A DNA stretch of 64,000 nt from Vagococcus hydrophili (GTDB lineage Bacteria; Bacillota; Bacilli; Lactobacillales; Vagococcaceae). Location: NCBI RefSeq assembly GCF_011304195.1, contig NZ_CP049887.1, positions 1,612,001 through 1,676,000 of the forward strand, given 5' to 3'. The notes under the pieces were generated by a model. The model was not told the origin of the DNA. It did no database searches and saw nothing but the letters and a program-made list of their open reading frames with translations. The position numbers and the translations under genes were made by a program. Every line of letters begins with the position of its first letter. Position 1 is the first letter of the stretch. Of the stretch, positions 1,854-54,188 are shown piece after piece.

Positions 1854-1981
1854 ATAGTTACAGGGTGGGTCAAAAGTCGTTTTGCTCCGAGCAACTGGAG
1901 GGAAAATCGAACAATCGCTCTTTTTGATTGATCGATTTTCGTGAAGTTGCCGTGGGAGCAGACTTTTTACCCCTAACTATT
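1853..1981. repeat. structured hairpin repeat, cluster A (1 copy)
   Basis: A 129-nt nested inverted repeat that starts on the last base of the nrdD stop codon. Outer arms are AATAGTTA/TAACTATT, then GGGT/ACCC, then AAAAGTC/GACTTTT. The conserved motif GCTCCGAGCAACTGGAG pairs with GAAGTTGCCGTGGGAGC, and an inner stem has AAAATCGA/TCGATTTT arms. It shares the family architecture but has its own stem sequences. It sits between nrdD and nrdG and could end transcription or process the message between them. Confidence 0.85.
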
Positions 1982-6639: not shown

Positions 6640-6654
6640 TATGAATTTTTTTTC

Positions 6655-7056
6655 TTCCAGTTGCTTGGAGCTAAACAATTTTTTATCCACTCTGGTGTAG
6701 TCTGGGATCAAAAGGCAGCTCCTACGGCAACTTCAAAAACAAAAATTAATTCGAAAAGCGTGAATTATTTTTTGTTTTCTCCAGTTGCTTGGAGCAAAGC
6801 GCCTTTTTCACCACTCTGGTGTAGTCCGGGTTCAAAAGGCAGCTCCTTCGGTAACTTCAAAACCTAGAATCAATCCGAAAAACGTGAATTGTTTCTAGTT
6901 TTCTCCAGTTACTCGGAGCTAAACGCCTTTTTCACCACTCTGGTGTAGTCTGGGATCAAAAGGCAGCTCCTACGACAACTTCAAAAACAAAAATTAATTC
7001 GAAAAGCGTGAATTATTTTTTATTTTCTCCAGTTGCTTGGAGCAAAGCGCCTTTTT
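6655..7056. repeat. structured hairpin repeat, cluster B (half copy plus 3 tandem copies)
   Basis: This fills most of the 577-bp gap before the ABC genes. After a leading half copy at 6657-6672, full hairpins lie at 6710-6808, 6834-6932 and 6958-7056, a period of exactly 124 bp. Each reads AAAAGGC, GCTCC, a TACG-type loop, GGCAAC, inner stem, GTTGC, TT, GGAGC, GCCTTTTT. Spacers contain a CACTCTGGTGTAGTCTGG-like sequence. The middle copy has GTAAC/GTTAC in place of GCAAC/GTTGC, and a CTAGAA/TTCTAG segment in the inner stem where its neighbours have A/T runs. Stem changes are therefore compensated. Confidence 0.9.
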
Positions 7057-7164
7057 CACCTTTTTTACGTATGACAAATATGTAAGGTGTTTTTTATATT
7101 TTTAGATGTTCTCGTGTTTAAATTATTGATAAGATAGGGATAGAAGATTAACGGGGGGATTTCT

Positions 7165-9993: not shown

Positions 9994-10097
9994 AAGAGGT
10001 TGTGACAAAAGTAAGTCACAACCTCTTTTCAAACTAAACGGTGTCACAGAAGTAGCTTAATCGGAAATAAGCCGAACACTTCTGTCACAACCTCTTA
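9994..10097. terminator. compound bidirectional terminator with alternative pairings
   Basis: AAGAGGTTGTGAC pairs with GTCACAACCTCTT at once (9994-10028). The same right arm recurs at 10084-10096 and could pair with the first arm instead, enclosing an inner ACAGAAGT/ACTTCTGT hairpin. The last arm overlaps the stop codon of the convergent lysR-type gene. Confidence 0.75.
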
Positions 10098-10967
10098 TAC
10101 CCACTCACTAGATTGTTCCTTGATTAAATCAATCATACTCGTCATGGCTGGGGTTAACCATTTGTCTTTGTGATAGGCTAAAAAGGTTGAGATGGAATAG
10201 TCTTTTTCTTTGATCACAGTGCCACTAAATTTATCCTGTCCTAATTCCTCAGCTACACTAAAGTAAGGTAACATCGACATACCCAATCCACTAGCAACAC
10301 ACTGCTTGATAGCATCGATACTACCAAAGTCCACGCTATTATCAATAATGATTTCTTGTTCATCTAAGTAGTCTTTAAATAGCTGTTTGTAGGTACACGT
10401 TTTTTCAGTAAATAGAACTGTCTGTTTTTCTGGTAACTCAGATGATTGCAAGGGAGCGATTAAAACCATTGACTCCTCTTTGATAACTTCTTGAACGAGT
10501 TCTTTTTGAGACCAATCATTTCTTTTTAGAACAAGAACTAAATCAACTTTCCCTTGTTGTAATTCGTTGGGAATATTCTGATAATCAATAGAAGTAATCG
10601 ATAAATTAACCTCAGGATATTTTTCCTTGTAGGCTAAAAGTAGATGAGAAAATCGGGGATGGCTAGTTAAAGCTTCTGATGCACCTATTGTTAATTGACC
10701 ATTTGGGTAGGCAAATTCTTGGGAGATGCTTGTCATCTCAGTATAAATATCAAGAATACGTGAAGCGTATGTGTAAAATTGTTTACCAAATTGAGTGAGG
10801 TACATCTTTTTACCTAGTCTTTCAAATAGAGGCTGCTGGAATTCTTCTTCTAATGATTTAATATGACTGGTGATAGAAGATTGTGCGTAGCCTAAATGAT
10901 CAGCAGCCTTTTTAAAGCCATCTAAATCAACAATTGTTTTAAATGTTTGTAAATGACGAATTTCCAT
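10095..10967 (-). CDS. LysR-type transcriptional regulator
   Basis: 290 residues, the normal length. The N-terminal winged helix-turn-helix (residues 1-60) contains FKKAADHLGYAQSSITSHIKSLE. The rest is a periplasmic-binding-protein-like effector domain. It is divergent from a nitroreductase gene, with inverted repeats in the 142-bp gap, so it most likely controls that gene and itself. The effector is unknown. The start follows AAAGGAGTTATCTT. Confidence 0.92.
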   Translation of the reverse strand: MEIRHLQTFKTIVDLDGFKKAADHLGYAQSSITSHIKSLEEEFQQPLFERLGKKMYLTQFGKQFYTYASRILDIYTEMTSISQEFAYPNGQLTIGASEALTSHPRFSHLLLAYKEKYPEVNLSITSIDYQNIPNELQQGKVDLVLVLKRNDWSQKELVQEVIKEESMVLIAPLQSSELPEKQTVLFTEKTCTYKQLFKDYLDEQEIIIDNSVDFGSIDAIKQCVASGLGMSMLPYFSVAEELGQDKFSGTVIKEKDYSISTFLAYHKDKWLTPAMTSMIDLIKEQSSEWV

Positions 10968-15664: not shown

Positions 15665-15706
15665 AAAAGAGCGATTCCCTCCAGAAATTGGAAGGAATCG
15701 CTTTTT
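15664..15706. terminator. terminator after M42 peptidase gene
   Basis: AAAAAAGAGCGATTCC pairs with GGAATCGCTTTTT. It lies directly upstream of repeat cluster C. Confidence 0.9.
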
Positions 15707-15714
15707 ACTTTTTT

Positions 15715-15993
15715 TAGATGCTTGGAGCAAAATGCTTTTTTTCATCACTCTTTTGGAGTCTGGATTCAAAAGGCAGCTCCTGCGGCAACTTCAAAAATAA
15801 AAATCAATTCAAAAAGCACGAATTGTTTTTATTTTCTCCAGTTGCTTGGAGCTAAACGCCTTTTATCATCACTCTATGTAGTCCGAAATAAAAAATCTGC
15901 TCCTGCGGCAACTTCAAAAATAAAAATCAATTCAAAAAGCACGAATTGTTTTTTATTTTCTCCAGTTGCTTGGAGCAAAACGCTTTTTTATTT
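15715..15993. repeat. structured hairpin repeat, cluster C (half copy plus 2 copies)
   Basis: It occupies the 324-bp gap between convergent genes. Full hairpins lie at about 15768-15864 and 15886-15993, preceded by a half copy at 15719-15741. The second copy has an extended outer stem, AAATAAAAAA/TTTTTTATTT, which includes the stop codon of the ABC ATPase gene on the minus strand. Internal motifs GCTCCTGCGGCAACTTC and CCAGTTGCTTGGAGC are the family core. Confidence 0.9.
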
Positions 15994-16974
15994 ACTCTGT
16001 GTATAAATACTCCTTACCACGTCTTGGACGGTGGTTCTTGCGACGGCCATTTTGTTGATGCTGAATTGGCGGTATAATTCGCTTAGGATTTCTTTTTCAT
16101 TTTGTTCTTCTTGATTAATCGTGATCGATAAAGTGATACCGTCTAGTGAGTGTTCTAAATGGTTTTTTTTAAGAAAAATTTTTAATTCATTTAGTTCCTC
16201 TAAGTCGATGTCAAATTGAATGGTAGCATTAGTTGAGAAGTTTTCTAACATGGCTTCTTTTGAATCGTCGTAAATAATTTGACCATCCTCAATAATAATA
16301 ATTCTATCACATAGAGCTTCGATTTCACTTAAATCATGAGTGGTTAAAATAATTGTGACGTTCTCTTGTTGGTTAATCATTTTCAAGGTTTTTAAAATCT
16401 TATCCTTAATCATAATATCTAAACCAATCGTCGGTTCATCCAAATAAATCACTTTAGGCGAATGAATCAAGGCAATCGCAATATCCATTAGAACCCGCTG
16501 ACCTAGAGATAGAGATCTGACTTGTTGAATCCAGAGTTTTTTAATGCCCATGTGTTCTTCTAACAGTTGTAGTTGTCTTTCAAATTCTTCGTCAGAAACA
16601 TCGTAAATTTCTTTCAATAATTTAAAATTGTCTTCTACGGTTAAATCCCAGTTCATTTGAGTTCGTTGCCCAAAAACGACACTGATATTTTTGGCGTTCT
16701 CAATTCGGGATTCATAAGGAATAATGCCGTTGACTTCGCAACTTCCTGATGTCGGAGTTAAGATACCTGTCATCATTTTAATGGTGGTTGATTTACCAGC
16801 ACCATTTGTTCCGATGAAACCAACAATTTCACCCGGATAGATATTAAAACTAGCATCTTGTACAGCATGTTTGGGTATTTTAGTTGACTTGAAGAAGCCT
16901 TCTTTTTTTCTTAAATAAAATGTTTTTGAGACGTGATTGACAGAAATCACTGGGTTAGTTTCCGGCACTTTCAT
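15988..16974 (-). CDS. ABC-2 type exporter ATP-binding protein
   Basis: 328 residues. Walker A is GTNGAGKST, the signature SLGQRVLMDIA, Walker B VIYLDEPTIGLD and the switch histidine is in LTTHDLSE. The DrrA-like family pairs with ABC-2 permeases, and the two genes just upstream in the transcript encode such permeases; the first 20 bp overlap the preceding gene. The long C-terminal part after residue 220 is typical of this subgroup. Substrate unknown. Confidence 0.92.
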   Translation of the reverse strand: MKVPETNPVISVNHVSKTFYLRKKEGFFKSTKIPKHAVQDASFNIYPGEIVGFIGTNGAGKSTTIKMMTGILTPTSGSCEVNGIIPYESRIENAKNISVVFGQRTQMNWDLTVEDNFKLLKEIYDVSDEEFERQLQLLEEHMGIKKLWIQQVRSLSLGQRVLMDIAIALIHSPKVIYLDEPTIGLDIMIKDKILKTLKMINQQENVTIILTTHDLSEIEALCDRIIIIEDGQIIYDDSKEAMLENFSTNATIQFDIDLEELNELKIFLKKNHLEHSLDGITLSITINQEEQNEKEILSELYRQFSINKMAVARTTVQDVVRSIYTQSK

Positions 16975-22163: not shown

Positions 22164-23171
22164 ATGATTTTTGTATCAAATGAAGAAATTACAGACCCAC
22201 GAATTAACTTAGCCATTGAAACTTATTTAGTTCAAGAAATGCCAATAGATGAGCCAATCCTTTTATTCTATATTAATGAGCCATCAATTATTATTGGACG
22301 TAACCAAAATACCATTGAGGAAATTAATACAGATTACGTTGAAAAACAAGGTATCCATGTGGTGCGCCGTTTAAGTGGTGGTGGTGCCGTTTATCATGAT
22401 GCGGGTAACTTAAACTTTAGTTTTATCATGCCAGATGATGGAGAATCATTTAGAAACTTCGGCAAAGTCACACAACCAATTATTGATGCACTCCACGATA
22501 TGGGGGTTGAAGGCGCTGAACTTAAAGGACGTAATGATTTAATTATCGACGGTAAAAAATTCTCAGGAAACGCAATGTATTCAACAAATGGTCGCATGTT
22601 TGCTCATGGGACGTTAATGTTTGATAGTGATGTTAATGAAGTTGTGAATGCTTTAAAAGTGAGAAAAGATAAAATCGAATCAAAAGGTATCAAATCAATC
22701 CGTTCACGTGTAACGAACATCAAACCATACTTAACAGATACACATCAAAACATGTCTACAGAAGACTTTAGACAAGAAATTCTACTTAAAATCTTTGAAA
22801 CTGACAAAGTAGAAGATGTGAACGTCTATAAATTAACTGAAAAAGATTGGGAAAAAATCAATGCTATTTCTGATAAGTTATACCGTAACTGGGATTGGAA
22901 CTACGGACGTTCACCTGAATTTGATTTAGTGAGAAGAGAACGTTTTGCCATTGGCTCTATTGAAGCAAAAATGAACGTCTCAGAAGGTGAGATTAAAGAA
23001 ATTAAACTATTTGGTGATTTCTTTGGTTTAGGTGAAATTTCAGACGTTGAAGAGGCGCTAACAGGAATTAAATACGATAAAGAATCTATCCAAAAAGCCG
23101 TAGAAAACATCGATGTGAAAAAATACTTCGGAAATATTGAAACAGAAGATTTGAGTGGTCTATTATATTAG
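22164..23171 (+). CDS. lplA: lipoate-protein ligase
   Basis: 335 residues. It activates free lipoate with ATP and attaches it to lysines of E2 subunits and the glycine cleavage H protein. Motifs include RRLSGGGAVYHDAGNLNFSF for the lipoyl-AMP pocket, and GRNDLIIDGKKFSGNAMY with the catalytic lysine region. The C-terminal accessory domain is present. AGGAGAATGCCAC precedes the ATG. Convergent with the ClpP-like gene; repeat cluster D lies between. Confidence 0.94.
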   Translation: MIFVSNEEITDPRINLAIETYLVQEMPIDEPILLFYINEPSIIIGRNQNTIEEINTDYVEKQGIHVVRRLSGGGAVYHDAGNLNFSFIMPDDGESFRNFGKVTQPIIDALHDMGVEGAELKGRNDLIIDGKKFSGNAMYSTNGRMFAHGTLMFDSDVNEVVNALKVRKDKIESKGIKSIRSRVTNIKPYLTDTHQNMSTEDFRQEILLKIFETDKVEDVNVYKLTEKDWEKINAISDKLYRNWDWNYGRSPEFDLVRRERFAIGSIEAKMNVSEGEIKEIKLFGDFFGLGEISDVEEALTGIKYDKESIQKAVENIDVKKYFGNIETEDLSGLLY

Positions 23172-23174
23172 AGT

Positions 23175-23397
23175 GAATAAAAAGACTTTTTGCTCCAAGC
23201 AACTGGAGAAACTACAAAAAATCTGCTTTTTGGATTTATTGTAGTTTTGAAGTTGTCGCGGGAGCAGTCTTTTTATTCCAGACTACCATAGAGTGGTGAA
23301 AATGGCGTTTTTCTCCAAGCAACTGGAGTAAATACTAAACAATCCACGTTTTTGGGATTGATTAGTATTTGCGAAGTTGCCGTAGGAGCTGCTATTT
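23175..23397. repeat. structured hairpin repeat, cluster D (2 copies)
   Basis: Hairpins lie at 23175-23278 and about 23300-23397, in the opposite orientation to clusters B, C and E. The first has perfect GAATAAAAAGAC/GTCTTTTTATTC outer arms and AAACTACAA/TTGTAGTTT inner arms. The second has AAATGGC/GCTATTT and AATACTAA/TTAGTATT. The core GCTCCAAGCAACTGGAG (CTCC in the second copy) and its partner are conserved. It fills the gap between convergent genes. Confidence 0.9.
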
Positions 23398-23422
23398 GAA
23401 CCAGGACTACCATAGAATAATG

Positions 23423-27366: not shown

Positions 27367-27657
27367 TCTAAAAAAAGGCACTTAACTCCAGTTGCTTGGA
27401 GCTAAGCGCCTTTTTCATCATTTTTTAGTTCAGATTCAAAAGGCAGCTCCTGCGGCAACTTCAAAAATAAAAATTAATTCTAAAAGCGTGAATTATTTTT
27501 TATTTCCTCCAGTTGCTTGGAGCTAGGCGCCTTTTTCATCATTTTTTAGTTCAGATTCAAAAGGCAGCTCCTGCGGCAACTTCAAAAATAAAAATTAATT
27601 CTAAAAGCGTGAATTATTTTTTATTTCCTCCAGTTGCTTGGAGCTAAGCGCCTTTTT
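27367..27657. repeat. structured hairpin repeat, cluster E (mini copy plus 2 copies)
   Basis: A short hairpin at 27367-27413 keeps only the outer parts (AAAAAGGC, CTTA, CTCCA / TGGAG, TAAG, GCCTTTTT). Two nearly identical full copies follow at 27439-27536 and 27559-27657, period 120 bp. They lie between the convergent GtrA-like and nrdF genes. The near-identity of the two copies points to recent duplication. Confidence 0.9.
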
Positions 27658-27669
27658 CATCATGCTTTT

Positions 27670-38215: not shown

Positions 38216-41200
38216 ATGAAGACAAGAAAAATAATGGTTTGTCTGAGTGTTGCGACGTTATTTATTTCCCCAGGGGTTGCCATGGCGGAAGGGTTGGTTA
38301 AAGAACCAGTTAAAAAAACAGAACAATCTGAAGAGAATAGTTTAAATACAGTAGAAACAAACAGTACAGAAGAGGTCATCACTAATCCAAATGTAAAAGT
38401 AGATCCAGTTGTACCAGAAACAACAGTGAATGAAGTCTCACCAATTTCACCCGTGACAAATGAATCAATCAATCTACCATCAAAAGAAAATATCACTCAA
38501 ATGATGAAAGAAGAAAAAGGAACTTATGGAACGAGTGCTTGGAAGTTAGATAAAAATGGGGTTCTACATATTTACTCAGGTGAATTACCGGAAACAATGA
38601 GTGCAAGTCCATGGATTACTTTACGCTCAAATATTAACAAAGTTAGTTTAGAAGGTTCTATTTCTGTATCAGAAAATTCAAAGCAAGCTTTTTTAGAGTT
38701 GTTTCAAGGGTTGCGTGTGGATAAGTTAGACCGATTAAAAGTGAAAAATGATTTACCAGTGCCAACAACTGCGTTAACGGATGACTCCAATGGACAAATC
38801 AATCAAGCTAAGAAATCAAAAAAGAATCATTCAAATAAAGCGCAAAAAGTAACAGCAGATGTTAGTTCAAAAAAAGAAGGAAAAAATAAAGTAGCTTCTA
38901 AAGTACCTCATTTATCAAACAGAGAAGCATCAGCTGAAATAGTAGCTAATAGTAGAGAACAGGAAGAAGTCACAGTTTCAGCACCAAGAGCAGTCGAAGG
39001 TATTGAAGTTCAAGAAACCACGACAGTTATTAAACAAGGTGAAGAATGGGATCCAAGAGCTAATATTATTTCAGCATATTACCCAAAAGACCCAATAGAC
39101 CCAATAGACCCAAGTAATCCAACTGAAACTGAATTGGAAGATGTAACTTCTAAAGTTTTAATTACCGATCAAAACGGAAAAGAAATAACTAAAACAAAGT
39201 GGGAAGAACCAGGAGATTTTGTAATAACTTATTCTTATAAAGATATAAAAGAAGAGGTAGTATTAACTGTCCGTGCTCGTACAGTGGATATAAATGTATT
39301 AACGAAAGCACCAATTAAACCAGGAAATGAATGGACACCGGGTGATAATCTTGGAGATTGTCCTAACGAAGATGGTGAAAATGTTTCAGATCAAGTTAGA
39401 GTTAAAGAAGTATTTTATGAAGATGATATCTATGTAGATACTGTAAATACAAGTGTGCCAGGAGTTTATACCGTTGTGTATGAGTATTCTGATGAATACA
39501 TAACTGTCGAAAAAAGTACAAAAGTAACAGTTGATTTTTATGAAGTAAAATTAAGTTCAATTTCAACCCCAGAGAAGGAACCTTTAAAATTCGGTAGTGA
39601 GTGGGATCCCGCTGATAACTTTGGCGATGGAACAGATAAAATGGGGAAAGACATTGATTTTTATGAAGATGGCGTAACTTATACGATTTCTTACAATCAA
39701 AAGAAAGTGGATACTGTTGATACAACAAAACCGGGTGTTTATAACGTTACTTATGCTCATCAAGGGAAAAAATCACCTGTTGCTAAAGTGATTGTTGATG
39801 TTCGTCGTGTGGAGCTAGTTGTTGTCGATTCTCAAATTGGTATGGGTGAAGACTGGGATCCGATTGATAATATTGTTTCTTGTACAGATAAAGAAGGCGT
39901 TTACGTTAATCCAAAAAATGTTAAATCCACAGGAACTGTTGATACGACCAAACCAGGAGTTTATCCGGTTAAATATACATATGATGGTGTGAGTCAAACA
40001 GCTAAAGTAACAGTTACAGAGCAGTTAGATGGTAATTGGGGAACTAGTACATGGTATGTTCGTGATAAGGTATTACATATTGGAGCAAAAGGTAAACATC
40101 AAGCCTTTCCAAATGCCACAGGAACAAGTCCTTGGGCGGTTCATAATAAACGAATTAGTAAGGTTGTCTTTGATGGGCAAGTAGCTGCTAATGAAAGTTT
40201 GAAAGGTTTATTCAGTGGATTAGATAATGTTGTTTCTATTGAAGGCTTGGAGTATTTAGATACAACCAACACAACGGATATGAGTTCAATGTTTAATGGC
40301 TGTCGTAGTTTAACAACTCTTAATAATTTTTCATACCTTTACACTGGTAAAGTTACGAATATGAACTCAATGTTTAATGGAACAAGTAGTTTAAAAGAAA
40401 TTGATTTATCAAATTTCCATACAGAAGAAGTAACGGATATGGGTTCAATGTTTAGTGGAAATACTAACCTAGCATCACTTGATTTATCAGAGTTTGATAC
40501 AAGTAAAGTGAATCGTAGTGTAGGAATGTTTTCTAACACCAACTTAGCAACAGTTGATTTTGGAAAAAGCTTCAAAGTTAAAGAAGATCCTAAACTAGGT
40601 AAACCAGCAAGACAACAAGGTGGCATTGATTATTGGATTTCAGCAACAGCACCTAAAGCTGGGGCAAATGAGCCAATTTACACAGTAAAAGAGATGAATA
40701 GTGGTTTAATTGCTGGAACGAAAAAAGATAAGTTCCAAGGAGCTTTAGAACCTGTAATTAATGCTCATGATATCGAACTTTATTCTGGAGAAAAATGGGA
40801 TAAAAAGGATAATTTTGATAATGCGACAGATTATCGCGGTAATAAATTAGCTTTAACTAGTTTGAAATTTGAAGGTAAAGTAGATACTAAAGTACCGGGA
40901 GAATATCCTATTAGTTACTCATATGGTGATGCTCAAAAAGAGGCAGCTGTGACTAAAGAAGTGACAGTAACGGTTAAAGAAAACCAAGCAGCCTTAGTTG
41001 TGATGGATTCTGATTTGATTGTTGGAGATGCGTGGAAAGCAGAAGATAACATCAATCTTGAAAAGAGTGTGGATAAAGAAGGAAATGCTCTTCAAACCAT
41101 GGACAATGTAAAGGTTGAAGGAACGGTTAACACGAATAAAGCTGGAACGTATACGATTAAATATAGTCACCCAGATTTAGTGAAAACTGAAACTGTAAAA

Positions 41201-42478
41201 GTTGTTGTTAAGGCAGATCAAACAGCTATTAACATTCATAATTCTGACTTATATGTAGGCTCTAAGTGGAAAGCAGAAGATAATTTTGATAGCGCTGTGG
41301 ATCGAAAAGGTAATAAAGTACCTTTTGAAGAAGTAGAAGTTAAAGGCGATGACAAAGTAGATACAAATAAAGTTGGCGAATATAAAGTCAGCTATACATA
41401 TGAAGATAAAACAGATGTCGCTGTCATCAAAGTAAAAGAAAAAGAAAATAAAACAGCCCTTCATGTGCATGATTCAACTTTAATTATTGGAGAAGCTAAT
41501 CCTTGGAAACCGATTGATAATTTTGACGGTTGTTCTGATAAAGATGGTAACCGAGTGAGCTTTGATGATGTGACTGTTATTGGAAAAGTGAATGTAAAAG
41601 AAGCTGACGTTTATGAAGTGACGTATAGTTACGGTGATGTGAGTGAAATTGTTCGTGTTACAGTGAAAGAAAAAGAATACCCAATTGAAATTAATGTGCA
41701 TGATTCTACCGTTTTTGTGGGAAGTAATTGGGAAGCAGAACAAAACTTTGATAGCTGTTACGATCTCCATGGAGTAGAAGTCGAGTACGATCAAATGAGA
41801 GTTAATAGTAAAGTTGATATCGAAACTCCAGGCGTCTATAAAGTGAAATATTCTTATGGAGGTACTTCAAAAGAAGCATCCGTAACAGTAGCTGAACGGA
41901 TTGATAAATCAGAAATTAATGTCCATGATTCTAAGATAAATATCGGGGATGATTGGTATCCTAAACAAAACTTCGACAGTGCTATTGATAAAGATGGTAA
42001 AAAAGTAAGCTTTGATAAAATGACTGTGGAAGGTACTGTGGATACTGAGAAAAAAGGTACTTATGAAGTGAAGTATAGTTATGAAAATGAGACGAATGCA
42101 GCTTATATAAGTGTAGGTGCCAAAGATCCGGTGACAGATCCAAAAGACCCAGATAAAGACCCAGATAAAGACCCGAATAAAGATCCAAATAAGGATCCAA
42201 AAAAGGATGAAGACAAAGATCCGAAAGACAATAAGAAGCCGGATGATACTAGTAATTCTAATGCAAAAAATAATAATGGAAATACTAACAATCCGAATGG
42301 AAATAACGGAACTACTAATCCAGGAACAGGTGGAGCTGCAGATCAAAATCAAACACCTCTTGAAAAATTAGCTTCTGGATTACCACAAACAGGTGAATTG
42401 AAAAACTATTCATTTGGTATTTTAGGTGGATTAATTTCAAGTGTGACAGGCTATCTGTTCTATAAAAAAAGAAAATAA
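38216..42478 (+). CDS. LPQTG-anchored surface protein with BspA-like domain and ten Ig-like repeats
   Basis: 1420 residues. Signal peptide 1-24 ends VAMAEG. A truncated copy of the central module's start (GTYGTSAWKLDKNG) lies near residue 102. Ig-like repeats of 70-95 residues, each with a G..W....N/D F D pattern and a closing YxVxYSY, begin near 262, 358, 443, 531, 847, 923, 1000, 1080, 1155 and 1230. Between repeats 4 and 5 a BspA/DUF285 module (about 605-808) has the TNMNSMFNGTSSLKEIDLS type of unit. A DPxKDP-rich wall spacer spans 1303-1372. LPQTG at 1389-1393, a hydrophobic helix and KKRK are the sortase signal. Probably an adhesin. Confidence 0.93.
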   Translation: MKTRKIMVCLSVATLFISPGVAMAEGLVKEPVKKTEQSEENSLNTVETNSTEEVITNPNVKVDPVVPETTVNEVSPISPVTNESINLPSKENITQMMKEEKGTYGTSAWKLDKNGVLHIYSGELPETMSASPWITLRSNINKVSLEGSISVSENSKQAFLELFQGLRVDKLDRLKVKNDLPVPTTALTDDSNGQINQAKKSKKNHSNKAQKVTADVSSKKEGKNKVASKVPHLSNREASAEIVANSREQEEVTVSAPRAVEGIEVQETTTVIKQGEEWDPRANIISAYYPKDPIDPIDPSNPTETELEDVTSKVLITDQNGKEITKTKWEEPGDFVITYSYKDIKEEVVLTVRARTVDINVLTKAPIKPGNEWTPGDNLGDCPNEDGENVSDQVRVKEVFYEDDIYVDTVNTSVPGVYTVVYEYSDEYITVEKSTKVTVDFYEVKLSSISTPEKEPLKFGSEWDPADNFGDGTDKMGKDIDFYEDGVTYTISYNQKKVDTVDTTKPGVYNVTYAHQGKKSPVAKVIVDVRRVELVVVDSQIGMGEDWDPIDNIVSCTDKEGVYVNPKNVKSTGTVDTTKPGVYPVKYTYDGVSQTAKVTVTEQLDGNWGTSTWYVRDKVLHIGAKGKHQAFPNATGTSPWAVHNKRISKVVFDGQVAANESLKGLFSGLDNVVSIEGLEYLDTTNTTDMSSMFNGCRSLTTLNNFSYLYTGKVTNMNSMFNGTSSLKEIDLSNFHTEEVTDMGSMFSGNTNLASLDLSEFDTSKVNRSVGMFSNTNLATVDFGKSFKVKEDPKLGKPARQQGGIDYWISATAPKAGANEPIYTVKEMNSGLIAGTKKDKFQGALEPVINAHDIELYSGEKWDKKDNFDNATDYRGNKLALTSLKFEGKVDTKVPGEYPISYSYGDAQKEAAVTKEVTVTVKENQAALVVMDSDLIVGDAWKAEDNINLEKSVDKEGNALQTMDNVKVEGTVNTNKAGTYTIKYSHPDLVKTETVKVVVKADQTAINIHNSDLYVGSKWKAEDNFDSAVDRKGNKVPFEEVEVKGDDKVDTNKVGEYKVSYTYEDKTDVAVIKVKEKENKTALHVHDSTLIIGEANPWKPIDNFDGCSDKDGNRVSFDDVTVIGKVNVKEADVYEVTYSYGDVSEIVRVTVKEKEYPIEINVHDSTVFVGSNWEAEQNFDSCYDLHGVEVEYDQMRVNSKVDIETPGVYKVKYSYGGTSKEASVTVAERIDKSEINVHDSKINIGDDWYPKQNFDSAIDKDGKKVSFDKMTVEGTVDTEKKGTYEVKYSYENETNAAYISVGAKDPVTDPKDPDKDPDKDPNKDPNKDPKKDEDKDPKDNKKPDDTSNSNAKNNNGNTNNPNGNNGTTNPGTGGAADQNQTPLEKLASGLPQTGELKNYSFGILGGLISSVTGYLFYKKRK

Positions 42479-47621: not shown

Positions 47622-48425
47622 GTGGAAAATAATGGATTCAAGGTGAGTGTTCTTGCAAGTGGTAGTTCTGGAAATTCACTGTATGTTGAAACAGGACAAA
47701 AGCGAATACTTGTTGATGCAGGATTAAGTGGTAAAAAAATCACTGGATTACTGGAGCAAATTGGGAGAAAACCTGATGATTTAGATGCTATTCTAGTAAC
47801 TCATGAACATCGCGATCATATCCACGGTGTGGGTGTGTTGGCTCGTAAATACAAGCTAGATGTGTATGCTAATGAAAAAACATGGCAAGCCATGGAACCT
47901 TTAATCGGTGATGTGAGCTTTGAGCAGAAAAATATTTTTAATATGGGCCAAGTCATGACATTAGGTGATATCGATATTGAAAGTTTTGGTGTGTCACATG
48001 ATGCGGCAGATCCTCAATTCTATCAGTTTCATAAAGACAATAAATCATTTGTAGTCCTAACCGATACAGGTTATTGTAGTGACCGGGTGCGTGGCATTAT
48101 TAAAAATGCAGACGGTTATTTGATGGAAAGTAATCATGATTTAGCCATGCTTCGAATGGGGAAATACCCCTGGAGTACGAAGCAACGTATTTTAAGTGAT
48201 AAAGGGCATTTGTCTAATGAAGACGGAGCTTCTGTAGCGCTTGACGTGATTGGTGATAAAACAAAACGCATTTATCTAGGACATTTAAGTAAAGAGAATA
48301 ATCTCAAAGAAATTGCTCATATGACAATGACAGATACCTTGATTAAAAATGATGTGGATACATTCAAACAAGTGAAAGTCTTGGATACAGATCCAGAAAA
48401 AGCATGTTCATTGTTTGCGATTTAG
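47622..48425 (+). CDS. yycJ: WalJ/YycJ metallo-beta-lactamase fold protein
   Basis: 267 residues with a GTG start after GGAAGGAAG. The metal site reads THEHRDHIHGVG; ASGSSGNSLYVE near the N-terminus and GHLSKENN later are typical of YycJ, a probable 5'-exonuclease-like DNA-repair enzyme. Last gene of the wal operon. Convergent with htrA, separated by repeat cluster F and a terminator. Confidence 0.93.
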   Translation: MENNGFKVSVLASGSSGNSLYVETGQKRILVDAGLSGKKITGLLEQIGRKPDDLDAILVTHEHRDHIHGVGVLARKYKLDVYANEKTWQAMEPLIGDVSFEQKNIFNMGQVMTLGDIDIESFGVSHDAADPQFYQFHKDNKSFVVLTDTGYCSDRVRGIIKNADGYLMESNHDLAMLRMGKYPWSTKQRILSDKGHLSNEDGASVALDVIGDKTKRIYLGHLSKENNLKEIAHMTMTDTLIKNDVDTFKQVKVLDTDPEKACSLFAI

Positions 48426-48437
48426 ATCAGAGTGATG

Positions 48438-48660
48438 AAAAAGGCGTCTAGCTCCAAGCAACTGGAGTGAATACTAAACAATCCACGTTTTTCGGATTGC
48501 TTAGTATTTGCGAAGTTGTCGTAGGAGCTGCCTTTTGAATCCAGACTAGATCAGAGTGGTGAAAAAATCGTTTTGCTCCAAGCAACTGGAGGAACTACAA
48601 AAAAATCCGCTTTTTGGATTTATTTGTAGTTTTGAAGTTGTCGCGGGAGCAGTCTTTTTA
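48438..48660. repeat. structured hairpin repeat, cluster F (2 copies)
   Basis: Copies lie at 48438-48536 (outer AAAAGGC/GCCTTTT, inner AATACTAA/TTAGTATT) and 48562-48660 (inner AACTACAAA/TTTGTAGTT). The period is 124 bp. The spacer carries CCAGACTAGATCAGAGTGGTG. These two inner-stem types are the same two found in cluster D, in the opposite order. Confidence 0.9.
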
Positions 48661-48683
48661 TTCCGGACTACATCAGAGTGAGT

Positions 48684-48722
48684 AAAAAAGCAGATTCCAA
48701 TTTCAAGGAATCTGCTTTTTTT
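48684..48722. terminator. terminator, yycJ/htrA convergence
   Basis: AAAAAAGCAGATTCC pairs with GGAATCTGCTTTTTT. Confidence 0.88.
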
Positions 48723-48738
48723 GGCTTCTAAACGGCAT

Positions 48739-48838
48739 AAAAAAAGCAAGTTCTACGGAGATAAACCGAAAATCACAAAAATTTGAGAAGCAATTTTCAT
48801 GATTTCCTTTTTATCTCTTGAAGTTGAGCGCTTTTTTT
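48739..48838. repeat. diverged member of the structured hairpin family, at the 3' end of htrA
   Basis: 100 nt with the same plan as the other copies but different stems. Outer AAAAAAAGC/GCGCTTTTTTT; AGTTC/GAAGTT where the others have GCTCC/GGAGC; GAGATAAA/TTTATCTC where the others have GGCAAC/GTTGC; then an imperfect inner stem with GAAAATCA/TGATTTCC arms. The internal loop TACG on one side and TT on the other is retained. On the minus strand it directly follows htrA. Confidence 0.75.
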
Positions 48839-48845
48839 ATAGCCT

Positions 48846-50213
48846 CTATTGTTGATAACTGCTATTTTCTAATGTTTTTTCTTTTTTCTGTTGTTGTTCT
48901 AATAATTTACTAGAGTCTTGGTCTAGTTTTACTTTTGTAGATTCTTTTTTACCATTGCGGTAGTAAGTGATTTCCATATCATCACCAATTTTTTTGTTGT
49001 AGAGTTTAGATTGTAACTCAGCACGGTTAGCAATGTCTTTGCCATCTAATTGTGTAATGACATCATATTTTTTCAATCCGCCTTTTTCAGCAGGAGTCCC
49101 TTTTTCCACAGAACCGACAACGACACCATTAGTTATTTCATCGCCTTTAATTTTTAGAACACTTTCTCGTTCTTCAGCACTGATTCTATTTAGGTCAATC
49201 ATTGAAACGCCTAACATTGGACGAGCAACTGGTTTTCCTGTTTCTAATTGGTTGATGATTTTCACGACATCGTTACTTGGAATCGCAAAGCCCATACCTT
49301 CTGCAGAAACGCCTGAAGCTGCTTGTGCAATCTTACTTGAGTTGATCCCAATAACTTGTCCACTTGAGTTAACTAAAGCCCCACCAGAGTTACCTGGGTT
49401 AATAGCGGCATCTGTTTGAATGGCGTTACTACTAATAACGGAACCATCTTCAGCTTGGTTTGTAATCATACGGTCTTTAGCAGATACAATCCCTTGAGAA
49501 ACTGAGTTAGAGAATGATGACCCCAGTGGAGATCCCATTGCAAGGGCAGCTTCTCCAACTTGAACCTCGTTTGAATCAGCAAATTCAGCAACATTTGTTA
49601 CGTCTTTTGATGAAATTTCAAGAACAGCTAAGTCACTATAAACGTCTGTTCCAACGACTTTTGCTTCGGCTTTTTTACCGTTACTAAAGGTGATATTAAC
49701 AGCGTCAGAGCCTGTGACCACGTGATTGTTAGTAACGATGTATGCTTTGTCCCCGTCTTTACGGTAAATAACGCCACTACCTTCACTTGCTTCAGCTAGT
49801 TTGCCATCATCTTTACTTCCTTCAGAAGGTCCAAATATTCTTTCTAAATCAGAAAGTTCAGATTGTTGTTTTTTCATGGTTGTGACAGAAACAACCGCAT
49901 TATCCATTTTTTTAACCGCACCTGTCACATCATTATTAACAGTTGATTTAGTGTTTTGTACTTTGGTTTTACCTGTATCGTTCACTTCTTCTTTTGATAA
50001 GGTGTGTGAAGTTGAAGTGTTGGCATTATTATCTTTATTAATAACAGTGTATCCTCCGACAACAAGTAGGCCACCTAAAGCACCTGCTAGTAGGGAAACA
50101 CCGATTTGTTTGAAGTAAGCATTGTTCTTTTTAGGCTTAGGATGTTTTAAGACCTTTTCTTGATTTGTATCTTTTCTTGTCTCTTTAGTTTCTGGGGTTA
50201 CGTCTTTTCTCAT
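48846..50213 (-). CDS. htrA: HtrA/DegP-like serine protease
   Basis: 455 residues. A cytoplasmic basic N-terminus, one transmembrane helix (about 38-58), the trypsin-like domain with His164 (TNNHVV), Asp194 (YSDLAVL) and Ser277 (GNSGGAL), then one PDZ domain (about 345-430) and a Lys/Gln/Glu-rich tail. It degrades misfolded proteins at the cell surface. Its ribosome site is separated from the ATG by a small hairpin. The wal-htrA-rlmH order is typical of Firmicutes. Confidence 0.95.
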   Translation of the reverse strand: MRKDVTPETKETRKDTNQEKVLKHPKPKKNNAYFKQIGVSLLAGALGGLLVVGGYTVINKDNNANTSTSHTLSKEEVNDTGKTKVQNTKSTVNNDVTGAVKKMDNAVVSVTTMKKQQSELSDLERIFGPSEGSKDDGKLAEASEGSGVIYRKDGDKAYIVTNNHVVTGSDAVNITFSNGKKAEAKVVGTDVYSDLAVLEISSKDVTNVAEFADSNEVQVGEAALAMGSPLGSSFSNSVSQGIVSAKDRMITNQAEDGSVISSNAIQTDAAINPGNSGGALVNSSGQVIGINSSKIAQAASGVSAEGMGFAIPSNDVVKIINQLETGKPVARPMLGVSMIDLNRISAEERESVLKIKGDEITNGVVVGSVEKGTPAEKGGLKKYDVITQLDGKDIANRAELQSKLYNKKIGDDMEITYYRNGKKESTKVKLDQDSSKLLEQQQKKEKTLENSSYQQ

Positions 50214-52329: not shown

Positions 52330-54188
52330 GTTCGCCCAGCATGGGCGAACTCTAACGGGTGAAAGTCCCTAACACGACCTAATAGTGGTAAGTGTATAGC
52401 CGAAAGCAAGGGTGTCCATGGTGACGTGGAATCTGAAGGAAGCTCTAGGTAAAACTCTGGTCTGACGAATAGAAATCACATAGGAGGCTACATACGAGGA
52501 TAAAACTGCAAAAGAAGTTAAAGTCCGATAACTATTGAAATAATCGTATGGAGTATATGTGGCAGATAGATGGAGTGAAAGAGTTCGCACCTTAACTGGG
52601 GAGGTCTCATCATCTTATCCCAAAATCTTATGGCAACATAAGGCTGAGATATGAGAAGTCAGCAGAAGCCGTAGTAGTGAAGACGGTTAGTGAAAGTTAA
52701 CTAGAGCGAAGGGCTGAACAATTTTAATGTTATCAAAAATTAATCACTGGAAGAGGAAATAGACTACTGACGAAAAGTTTTAAAGTAGATACCGACTTTA
52801 CAGAATTGAAAGGAAATAACAACTATGTACACAGAAACAGTTTTAGAACAAATCGTGGATAGAAAGAATCTGAATCAAGCATTTAAGCAAGTCAGACGAA
52901 ATAAAGGTGCCGAAGGTGTGGATGGTATGACTATTGAAGAAACGGCGAGTTATATAACGTCTAATAGAAAAGAAATAGTCACCCAAATCAGAAACAGAAA
53001 GTATAAACCATCCCCCGTTTTAAGAGTAGAAATACCGAAGCCAACTGGTGGTGTCCGACTTTTAGGTATACCAACAGTAAAAGATCGTGTGATACAGCAA
53101 GCTATATCTCAAGTGATTTCCCCCAAGTTTGATAAGGAGTTCAGTCCATATAGCTATGGATTTAGGCCTAACAAACAAGCTGAAATGGCCATCCAACAAT
53201 CGTTGGATTACTTTAACGAAGGCTATGAATGGGTTGTAGATATTGATTTGGAGAGATTCTTTGATACTGTGAATCATGATAGATTAATGAATTTAATCTC
53301 ACGAGTGATAAAAGATGGTGATGTCATTTCTCTGATTAGAAAATTTTTAGTTAGTGGTGTACAAGTCAACGGACAAGTTAAGCCAACGGATATAGGTACA
53401 CCACAGGGCGGTAATTTATCTCCTCTACTAAGTAATATTATGTTAAATGAATTGGATAAAGAACTTGAAGCAAGACAGCTTCATTTTGTCAGATATGCAG
53501 ATGACTGTTTAATTATGGTGAAAAGTGAAATGTCAGCGAGAAGAGTCATGCGCTCAGTAACAAAATTTATCGAAGAGAAATTAGGACTAATTGTGAACGT
53601 CACAAAATCCAAAATAATTAAAGCTGGAGACTCAGAGTTGAAGTATTTAGGTTTTTCTTTTTATAAAGGAAAGGATGGCTATCAAGCTAGACCACATCAA
53701 GCATCAGTTGAAAGCTTTAAGTTTAAATTAAAAAGGCTGACACGTAAAAATTGGAGTGTCAGTATCGAGGATAAAATTAAACGATTGAATCAAGTGATAT
53801 TAGGTTGGATTAACTATTTTAAGATTGGAAAAATGAAGAAAAATCTATCGAAGATAGAATCTCATCTACGTTTCCGAGTGAGAATGTGTTTATGGAAACA
53901 ATGGAAAACCGCTCAAAATAGAAGAAAGAATTTAATAAAACTAGGTATGGATAAATATACTGCTTATAAATACAGTCATACAAGTAAAGGCGTAGTGAGG
54001 ATAGCTTATTCATGGGTCATGACTACCACGATGACAAATAAGAGAGTAGCCGAATTAGGACTAATCTCTTGTGTAGAACATTATAGTAAAGTACATAGTT
54101 AATTTAAAATTGAACCGCCGTATACGGATCAGTACGTACGGTGGTGTGAGAGGACGAATAATCAAACATGGTTATTCTCCTACTCGAT
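52330..54188 (+). mobile_element. group II intron, probably class C, with maturase
   Basis: The RNA starts with GTTCGCCCAGCATGGGCGAAC, a perfect hairpin, and continues with GGGTGAAAGTCCC of domain I. After the maturase, domain V spans about 54113-54145: ACCGCCGTA pairs with TACGGTGGT, with a CG bulge and a CGC-type triad. Domain VI is GGACGAATAA/TTATTCTCC, and the 3' end is near 54188. Insertion just after a terminator hairpin, a short maturase without endonuclease and the CGC triad all point to group IIC. The 3' boundary is accurate to a few bases. Confidence 0.88.
52825..54102 (+). CDS. ltrA: group II intron reverse transcriptase/maturase
   Basis: 425 residues. RT motifs: GVDGMTIEE, GIPTVKDRVIQQA, YGFRPNKQAE, DIDLERFFDTVNHDRL, GTPQGGNLSPLLSNI and catalytic YADD at 224-227. 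The maturase X/GIIM domain follows (IKRLNQVILGWINYFKIG). No HNH endonuclease is present, as in class C. The protein looks intact. Confidence 0.95.
   Translation: MYTETVLEQIVDRKNLNQAFKQVRRNKGAEGVDGMTIEETASYITSNRKEIVTQIRNRKYKPSPVLRVEIPKPTGGVRLLGIPTVKDRVIQQAISQVISPKFDKEFSPYSYGFRPNKQAEMAIQQSLDYFNEGYEWVVDIDLERFFDTVNHDRLMNLISRVIKDGDVISLIRKFLVSGVQVNGQVKPTDIGTPQGGNLSPLLSNIMLNELDKELEARQLHFVRYADDCLIMVKSEMSARRVMRSVTKFIEEKLGLIVNVTKSKIIKAGDSELKYLGFSFYKGKDGYQARPHQASVESFKFKLKRLTRKNWSVSIEDKIKRLNQVILGWINYFKIGKMKKNLSKIESHLRFRVRMCLWKQWKTAQNRRKNLIKLGMDKYTAYKYSHTSKGVVRIAYSWVMTTTMTNKRVAELGLISCVEHYSKVHS

Follow-up and report, generated by a model that had tools for sequence, protein, structure and literature searches.

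Short, dispersed, non-coding repeats that form hairpins occur in bacteria as palindromic families such as REP/BIME, BOX and RUP. The Enterococcus faecalis repeats (EFAR) are said to be miniature insertion sequences, palindromic, intergenic and modular, most copies being about 170 bp long with two adjacent stem-loops. Their empty sites are reportedly short stem-loops that serve as targets, parts of the target stem being kept at the ends of the element. The Efa-1 family of E. faecalis is described as 163 nt long, intergenic and made up of a pair of adjacent stem-loops (PMC2267715).

The element considered here lies behind htrA in a 64,000-nt window of the Vagococcus hydrophili genome (the whole stretch of DNA that was analysed) and belongs to a repeat family hereafter called B. 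Like REP/BIME, BOX and RUP, B is short, dispersed, non-coding and hairpin-forming; it probably differs from them in sequence. In most Vagococcus copies a small terminator-like hairpin follows B on the gene-collinear strand, and the two together form a composite of about 160 nt. This intergenic two-hairpin composite, the single hairpin present at sites without B and a host range centred on Enterococcus all recall EFAR, and the length of about 160 nt, the two adjacent stem-loops and the intergenic position agree with the description of Efa-1. The likeness to EFAR and Efa-1 is one of layout and host range and, whereas EFAR reportedly takes the place of its target hairpin, B at htrA still has a plain hairpin beside it. 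REP elements mobilized by RAYT proteins differ, and were rejected as a model, in that the V. hydrophili genome gave no match to the Y1 transposase family (PF01797) and has no RAYT gene. Membership of an Rfam family was also rejected: a search of the window gave no match at the htrA hairpin, and a search with the L011 composite peaked at 21.5 bits, where the gathering score is 70.

The hairpin behind htrA and its family

The htrA gene (48846..50213, minus strand) encodes a serine protease of the HtrA/DegP family with 455 aa. A B copy at 48733..48848, assigned on a profile match of 103 bits, its 14 genome copies and its context, lies behind the gene on the same, minus strand, and extends 3 nt into the htrA stop codon. 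The 100-nt hairpin picked out by the first-pass annotation (48739-48838) falls inside this copy, between htrA and a plain terminator-like hairpin at 48684..48722 (AAAAAAGCAGATTCC/GGAATCTGCTTTTTTT; no strand assigned). A similar plain hairpin stands directly after htrA in the nearest relative (G004), whose HtrA is 89% identical.

The 100 nt fold into a long imperfect hairpin on either strand, more strongly on that of htrA. The minus strand reaches -31.3 kcal/mol (z -5.5), matched by none of 200 shuffles, and the plus strand -24.7 kcal/mol (z -3.05), matched by one of 200. The annotated hairpin is real and its stability is beyond chance. TACG and TT were also found at the place given for them, and GAGATAAA and TTTATCTC are exact complements. 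The second proposed stem, AGTTC/GAAGTT, does not hold up as a clean one: the covariance model alignment places a G-G mismatch in it, and the 4/2 loop that had been drawn forms in neither minimum-energy fold.

When the 100 nt were searched by blast against the single 3.05-Mb contig of the V. hydrophili genome, 14 places matched, the query itself included, at 77-100% identity, so that a unique element was rejected; the best of the 13 other copies go down to E 4.6e-28. When aligned, the 14 copies define family B, of about 118 nt and with a consensus of its own. Its stems are AGCTTC/GAAGCT and GAAATAAG/CTTATTTC, and the htrA copy carries these with a few point changes. It scores 103 bits with the B profile (E 9.9e-31) and 105 bits with the covariance model; as it is in the training sets of both, the independent support is the blast match to the 13 other copies.

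Wider searches gave 88 non-overlapping B matches, of which 76 were kept as near full-length and scoring at least 50 bits, and 75 entered the structure alignment, L021 being left out. Vagococcus contributes 46 of the 76. Of the 30 others, 26 were taken from the loci that matched best in 25 genomes and 4 from four plasmids, and they are no random sample. Within the window a small hairpin followed by a shortened B, which profile and covariance model both matched, occupies 9994..10096 (minus strand). The shortened B has lost the interior and keeps the outer stem and loop, and this composite too ends where a minus-strand gene (10095-10967) has its stop codon. Two B copies in G004 (L106 and L096) have duplicated flanks or a partial second unit, and B can thus also become tandem, as family A (below) does.

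In the 75-row alignment 94.8% of cells are paired, against 39-52% in slid controls, and double-sided changes occur in 25 of the 36 pairs. Doubly changed cells number 134 against 30.2 in shuffles, none of 500 of which was as high, although the B copies are mutually related and neither the shuffle counts nor the Wilcoxon value for strand bias can be read as probabilities for independent samples. The alignment indicates that the B structure is constrained, its pairing kept by compensatory changes. Folding favours the gene-collinear strand in 71 of 75 B copies, by a median of 6.9 kcal/mol, and likewise in 48 of the 49 A copies; the bias has the same sign in the two families despite their different interiors. 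Two juxtapositions that are A-C on the strand used by the first-pass annotation (62/75 and 64/75 B copies) become G-U on the gene strand, and the opposite case, a G-T beside the loop on the annotated strand, occurs in 67/75. Counted per strand, G-U against A-C variants come to 31 versus 39 cells in Vagococcus and 13 versus 31 elsewhere, a weak difference between non-independent cells.

Kinship with the tandem family and the fate of the loop

The first-pass annotation had seen in the htrA hairpin a diverged member of a twelve-copy family in the same window, here family A. Across the window and 30 further extracted loci this family amounts to 72 distinct units, whether full or partial, in tandem arrays of up to about five (6649-7060 and others). 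In the window a unit lies at 1863..1973 (plus, the gene-collinear strand) and arrays at 6649..7060 (minus, without a collinear stop codon beside it), 15686..15997 (minus), 23170..23403 (plus) and 27381..27665 (minus). A two-unit array (48429..48666, plus) follows the stop codon of the open reading frame at 47622-48425. Elsewhere the window has a long open reading frame (38216-42478, 1420 aa) with several internal repeat families (D5, D7-D10), and it also contains a group II intron (52415-54188) with a reverse transcriptase/maturase reading frame (52825-54102).

The shared layout that had been noticed is genuine. A covariance model built from the 75 B copies alone recovers every one of the twelve A copies of the window, with scores of 39-57 bits (E 2.3e-10 to 2.3e-6). 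If the B copy, in its readings on the two strands, is set aside, the next matches reach at most 27 bits, the best of them (10046-10086) being the shortened B. With loop columns excluded, the B consensus agrees with the outer segment of A at 18 of 24 positions, which 5 of 200,000 random hairpins attain, and B copies from other genera show up to 96% agreement. The htrA copy agrees at 16 of 24 (71 of 200,000), and the description of both its core stems as replaced was accordingly overstated.

By these comparisons A and B are homologous, and their common layout is to be attributed to common descent. Outer stem, loop, bulge and layout are alike; A differs in its interior, GCAACTTC as against GAAATAAG in B, and in its tandem arrays of units of about 122 nt. 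Both the A-type interior and the tandem units are absent at htrA, where the interior is of B type and the copy single. On this evidence the htrA copy belongs to B, a sister subfamily of A whose stems differ as a whole, and is one of 14 copies rather than a stray of the twelve. It had been argued that retention of loop and architecture alone would be unusual for a copied mobile repeat; the argument falls because the htrA element has itself been copied and belongs to a repeat that has a separate consensus.

The TACG/TT loop had been singled out as the part to test, a claim that fails in the wider sample. Of the 76 near full-length B copies four carry TACG/TT, all of them in Vagococcus. Within that genus (46 copies) mean entropy is 0.85 over the four loop bases against 0.24-0.37 in the adjoining stems, and the loop is the most variable part. 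One result speaks partly for the annotation: all 30 copies from other genera and plasmids share a single loop, but it is TTCG and not TACG, and the neighbouring stem 2 hardly varies more (97-99% constant), whereas stem 1 shows compensated changes. Among A units, the 39 of 72 parsed by pattern have TGCG (14), TTCG (13), TACG (7) and five others, and the two sides are linked, TTCG going with TC, and TGCG or TACG with TT. This co-variation, absent in B, looks like two sub-lineages. The ancestral loop was probably TTCG, and we infer that it stayed constant outside Vagococcus as part of a conserved block and decayed inside the genus. The TACG of the htrA copy would then have arisen by point change from a TNCG/TY internal loop that A and B share by inheritance.

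Placement, host range and proposed mobility

B copies are strongly oriented with respect to genes. Counting as genes open frames of at least 60 codons where the flank was only 500 nt and of at least 100 codons elsewhere, a stop codon stands at the gene-collinear end of 42 of 76 copies and at the other end of 3 of 76. In the V. hydrophili genome the collinear end falls within -12..+15 nt of the stop codon of the incoming gene in 11 of 14 copies (other end 0/14); the corresponding figures are 21 of 32 and 3 of 32 in other Vagococcus, and 10 of 30 and 0 of 30 outside the genus. A arrays begin no more than 40 nt from the stop of a collinear gene in 22 of 30 cases and end within the same distance of an opposing stop in 11 of 30, one array being counted twice and one locus giving two overlapping entries.

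B is present in 6 of 14 genomes of the genus, that of V. hydrophili included, and in 114 plasmid records, 92 of them from Enterococcus; one plasmid match spans both hairpins (query 43-198). With two candidates scored per genome, a survey of Lactobacillales found B in 71 of 395 genomes and 22 of 80 genera at E<=0.001, where the weakest matches are short and may be due to chance, and in 57 genomes and 13 genera at E<=1e-10. A strict B pattern occurs in named genomes as 7 stretches, all in V. fluvialis or V. silagei. Family A gave no plasmid match and is found in 14 of 395 genomes, with strong matches only in two from Vagococcus (G000 and G004).

HtrA itself is encoded in 14 of 14 genus genomes. 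A B copy behind the htrA stop codon is absent from all 13 other Vagococcus genomes, an outcome that the first-pass annotation had named among those that would refute it, and is present in that of V. hydrophili only. Two further sites vary in a similar manner. The L016 site has a single unrelated hairpin in G004 and G003 and was not found in G002. At the L018 site one hairpin is present in G004 and in G002, and in G003 (L152) a small hairpin is followed by a B-like outer stem without the interior, an arrangement that is possibly a minimal or ancestral form of the composite. At the three loci, then, B occupancy differs between close relatives, and the sites without B carry terminator-like hairpins.

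Against a mobile element, no transposase could be linked to B, and a clean target duplication was not found for it. The similarity between the end of B and its own downstream hairpin (316 against 305 +/- 7.6) was not significant: 412 of 5000 permutations over 44 copies, L106 and L096 with their duplicated flanks omitted, were as high.

Possible roles of the repeat

The reading preferred here, at odds of about three in four, is that the htrA hairpin is a copy of a dispersed EFAR/Efa-1-like mobile palindromic repeat in gene 3' ends, the hairpin of which is maintained. B would be a small mobile cassette, non-coding, that spreads by insertion into terminators or next to them. Transcribed there within the 3' untranslated RNA, it would form a long hairpin after the stop codon and ahead of the terminator, which may be tolerated or may help to end or protect the transcript. 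Copy number and occupancy point to movement, and strand bias, position and covariation are suggestive of action as RNA. The same odds apply jointly to the view that the TACG loop of the htrA copy would be no specially kept recognition site.

The orientation towards stop codons, the stronger folding seen on the gene strand, the covariation and the small hairpin behind B in most Vagococcus copies would also suit 3' UTR RNAs that serve the host, as domesticated terminators or 3'-end protectors selected on the gene-collinear strand. We rate this as possible but well short of an even chance: occupancy is lineage-specific, plain hairpins suffice in relatives, and a simple terminator and promoter scan of 48400-48900 called no site. 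An element maintained at the level of DNA, its hairpin kept as the single-stranded substrate of a mobilizing enzyme as in REP/RAYT and its RNA without a role, would account for the ability of both strands to fold, the dispersed copies and the lineage-specific occupancy. The V. hydrophili genome is without a Y1 transposase, however, and the strand bias in folding and position is unexpected from a purely DNA role, which leaves such an element unlikely.

The first-pass annotation had proposed a functional RNA that diverged under structural selection with its loop kept as the functional centre. Part of this stands, in that the structure is maintained, with changes on both sides in 25 of the 36 pairs, and TTCG is constant in copies outside Vagococcus while stem 1 covaries. 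The loop is nevertheless not the conserved part within Vagococcus, where it is the most variable, and the element is multicopy and missing at htrA in 13 of 13 relatives, so that this proposal is now very improbable. Next to no weight is given to an ordinary bidirectional htrA terminator that resembles the repeats by chance; the A-tract and T-tract at the stem base (AAAAAAAGC/GCTTTTTTT), unusual among B copies, would fit it, but the blast match to 13 other genome copies refutes it.

A broader extension of the preferred mobile-repeat reading is doubtful in our estimation. A and B would together form one superfamily of structured 3' UTR RNA cassettes, outside Rfam, that spread through the Lactobacillales by landing gene-collinearly directly behind stop codons and replaced or supplemented the native terminator. 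Were this true, many unrelated genes would come to share one RNA structure at their 3' ends, and perhaps a regulator as well.

The analysis shows the idea of the loop as functional centre to be a false lead, and it connects two repeat families of a single genome with a repeat that is widespread in Enterococcus and relatives. Stop-codon orientation, gene-strand folding and compensatory changes make a testable case for an RNA-level role or constraint in the mobile palindromic repeats of lactic acid bacteria.
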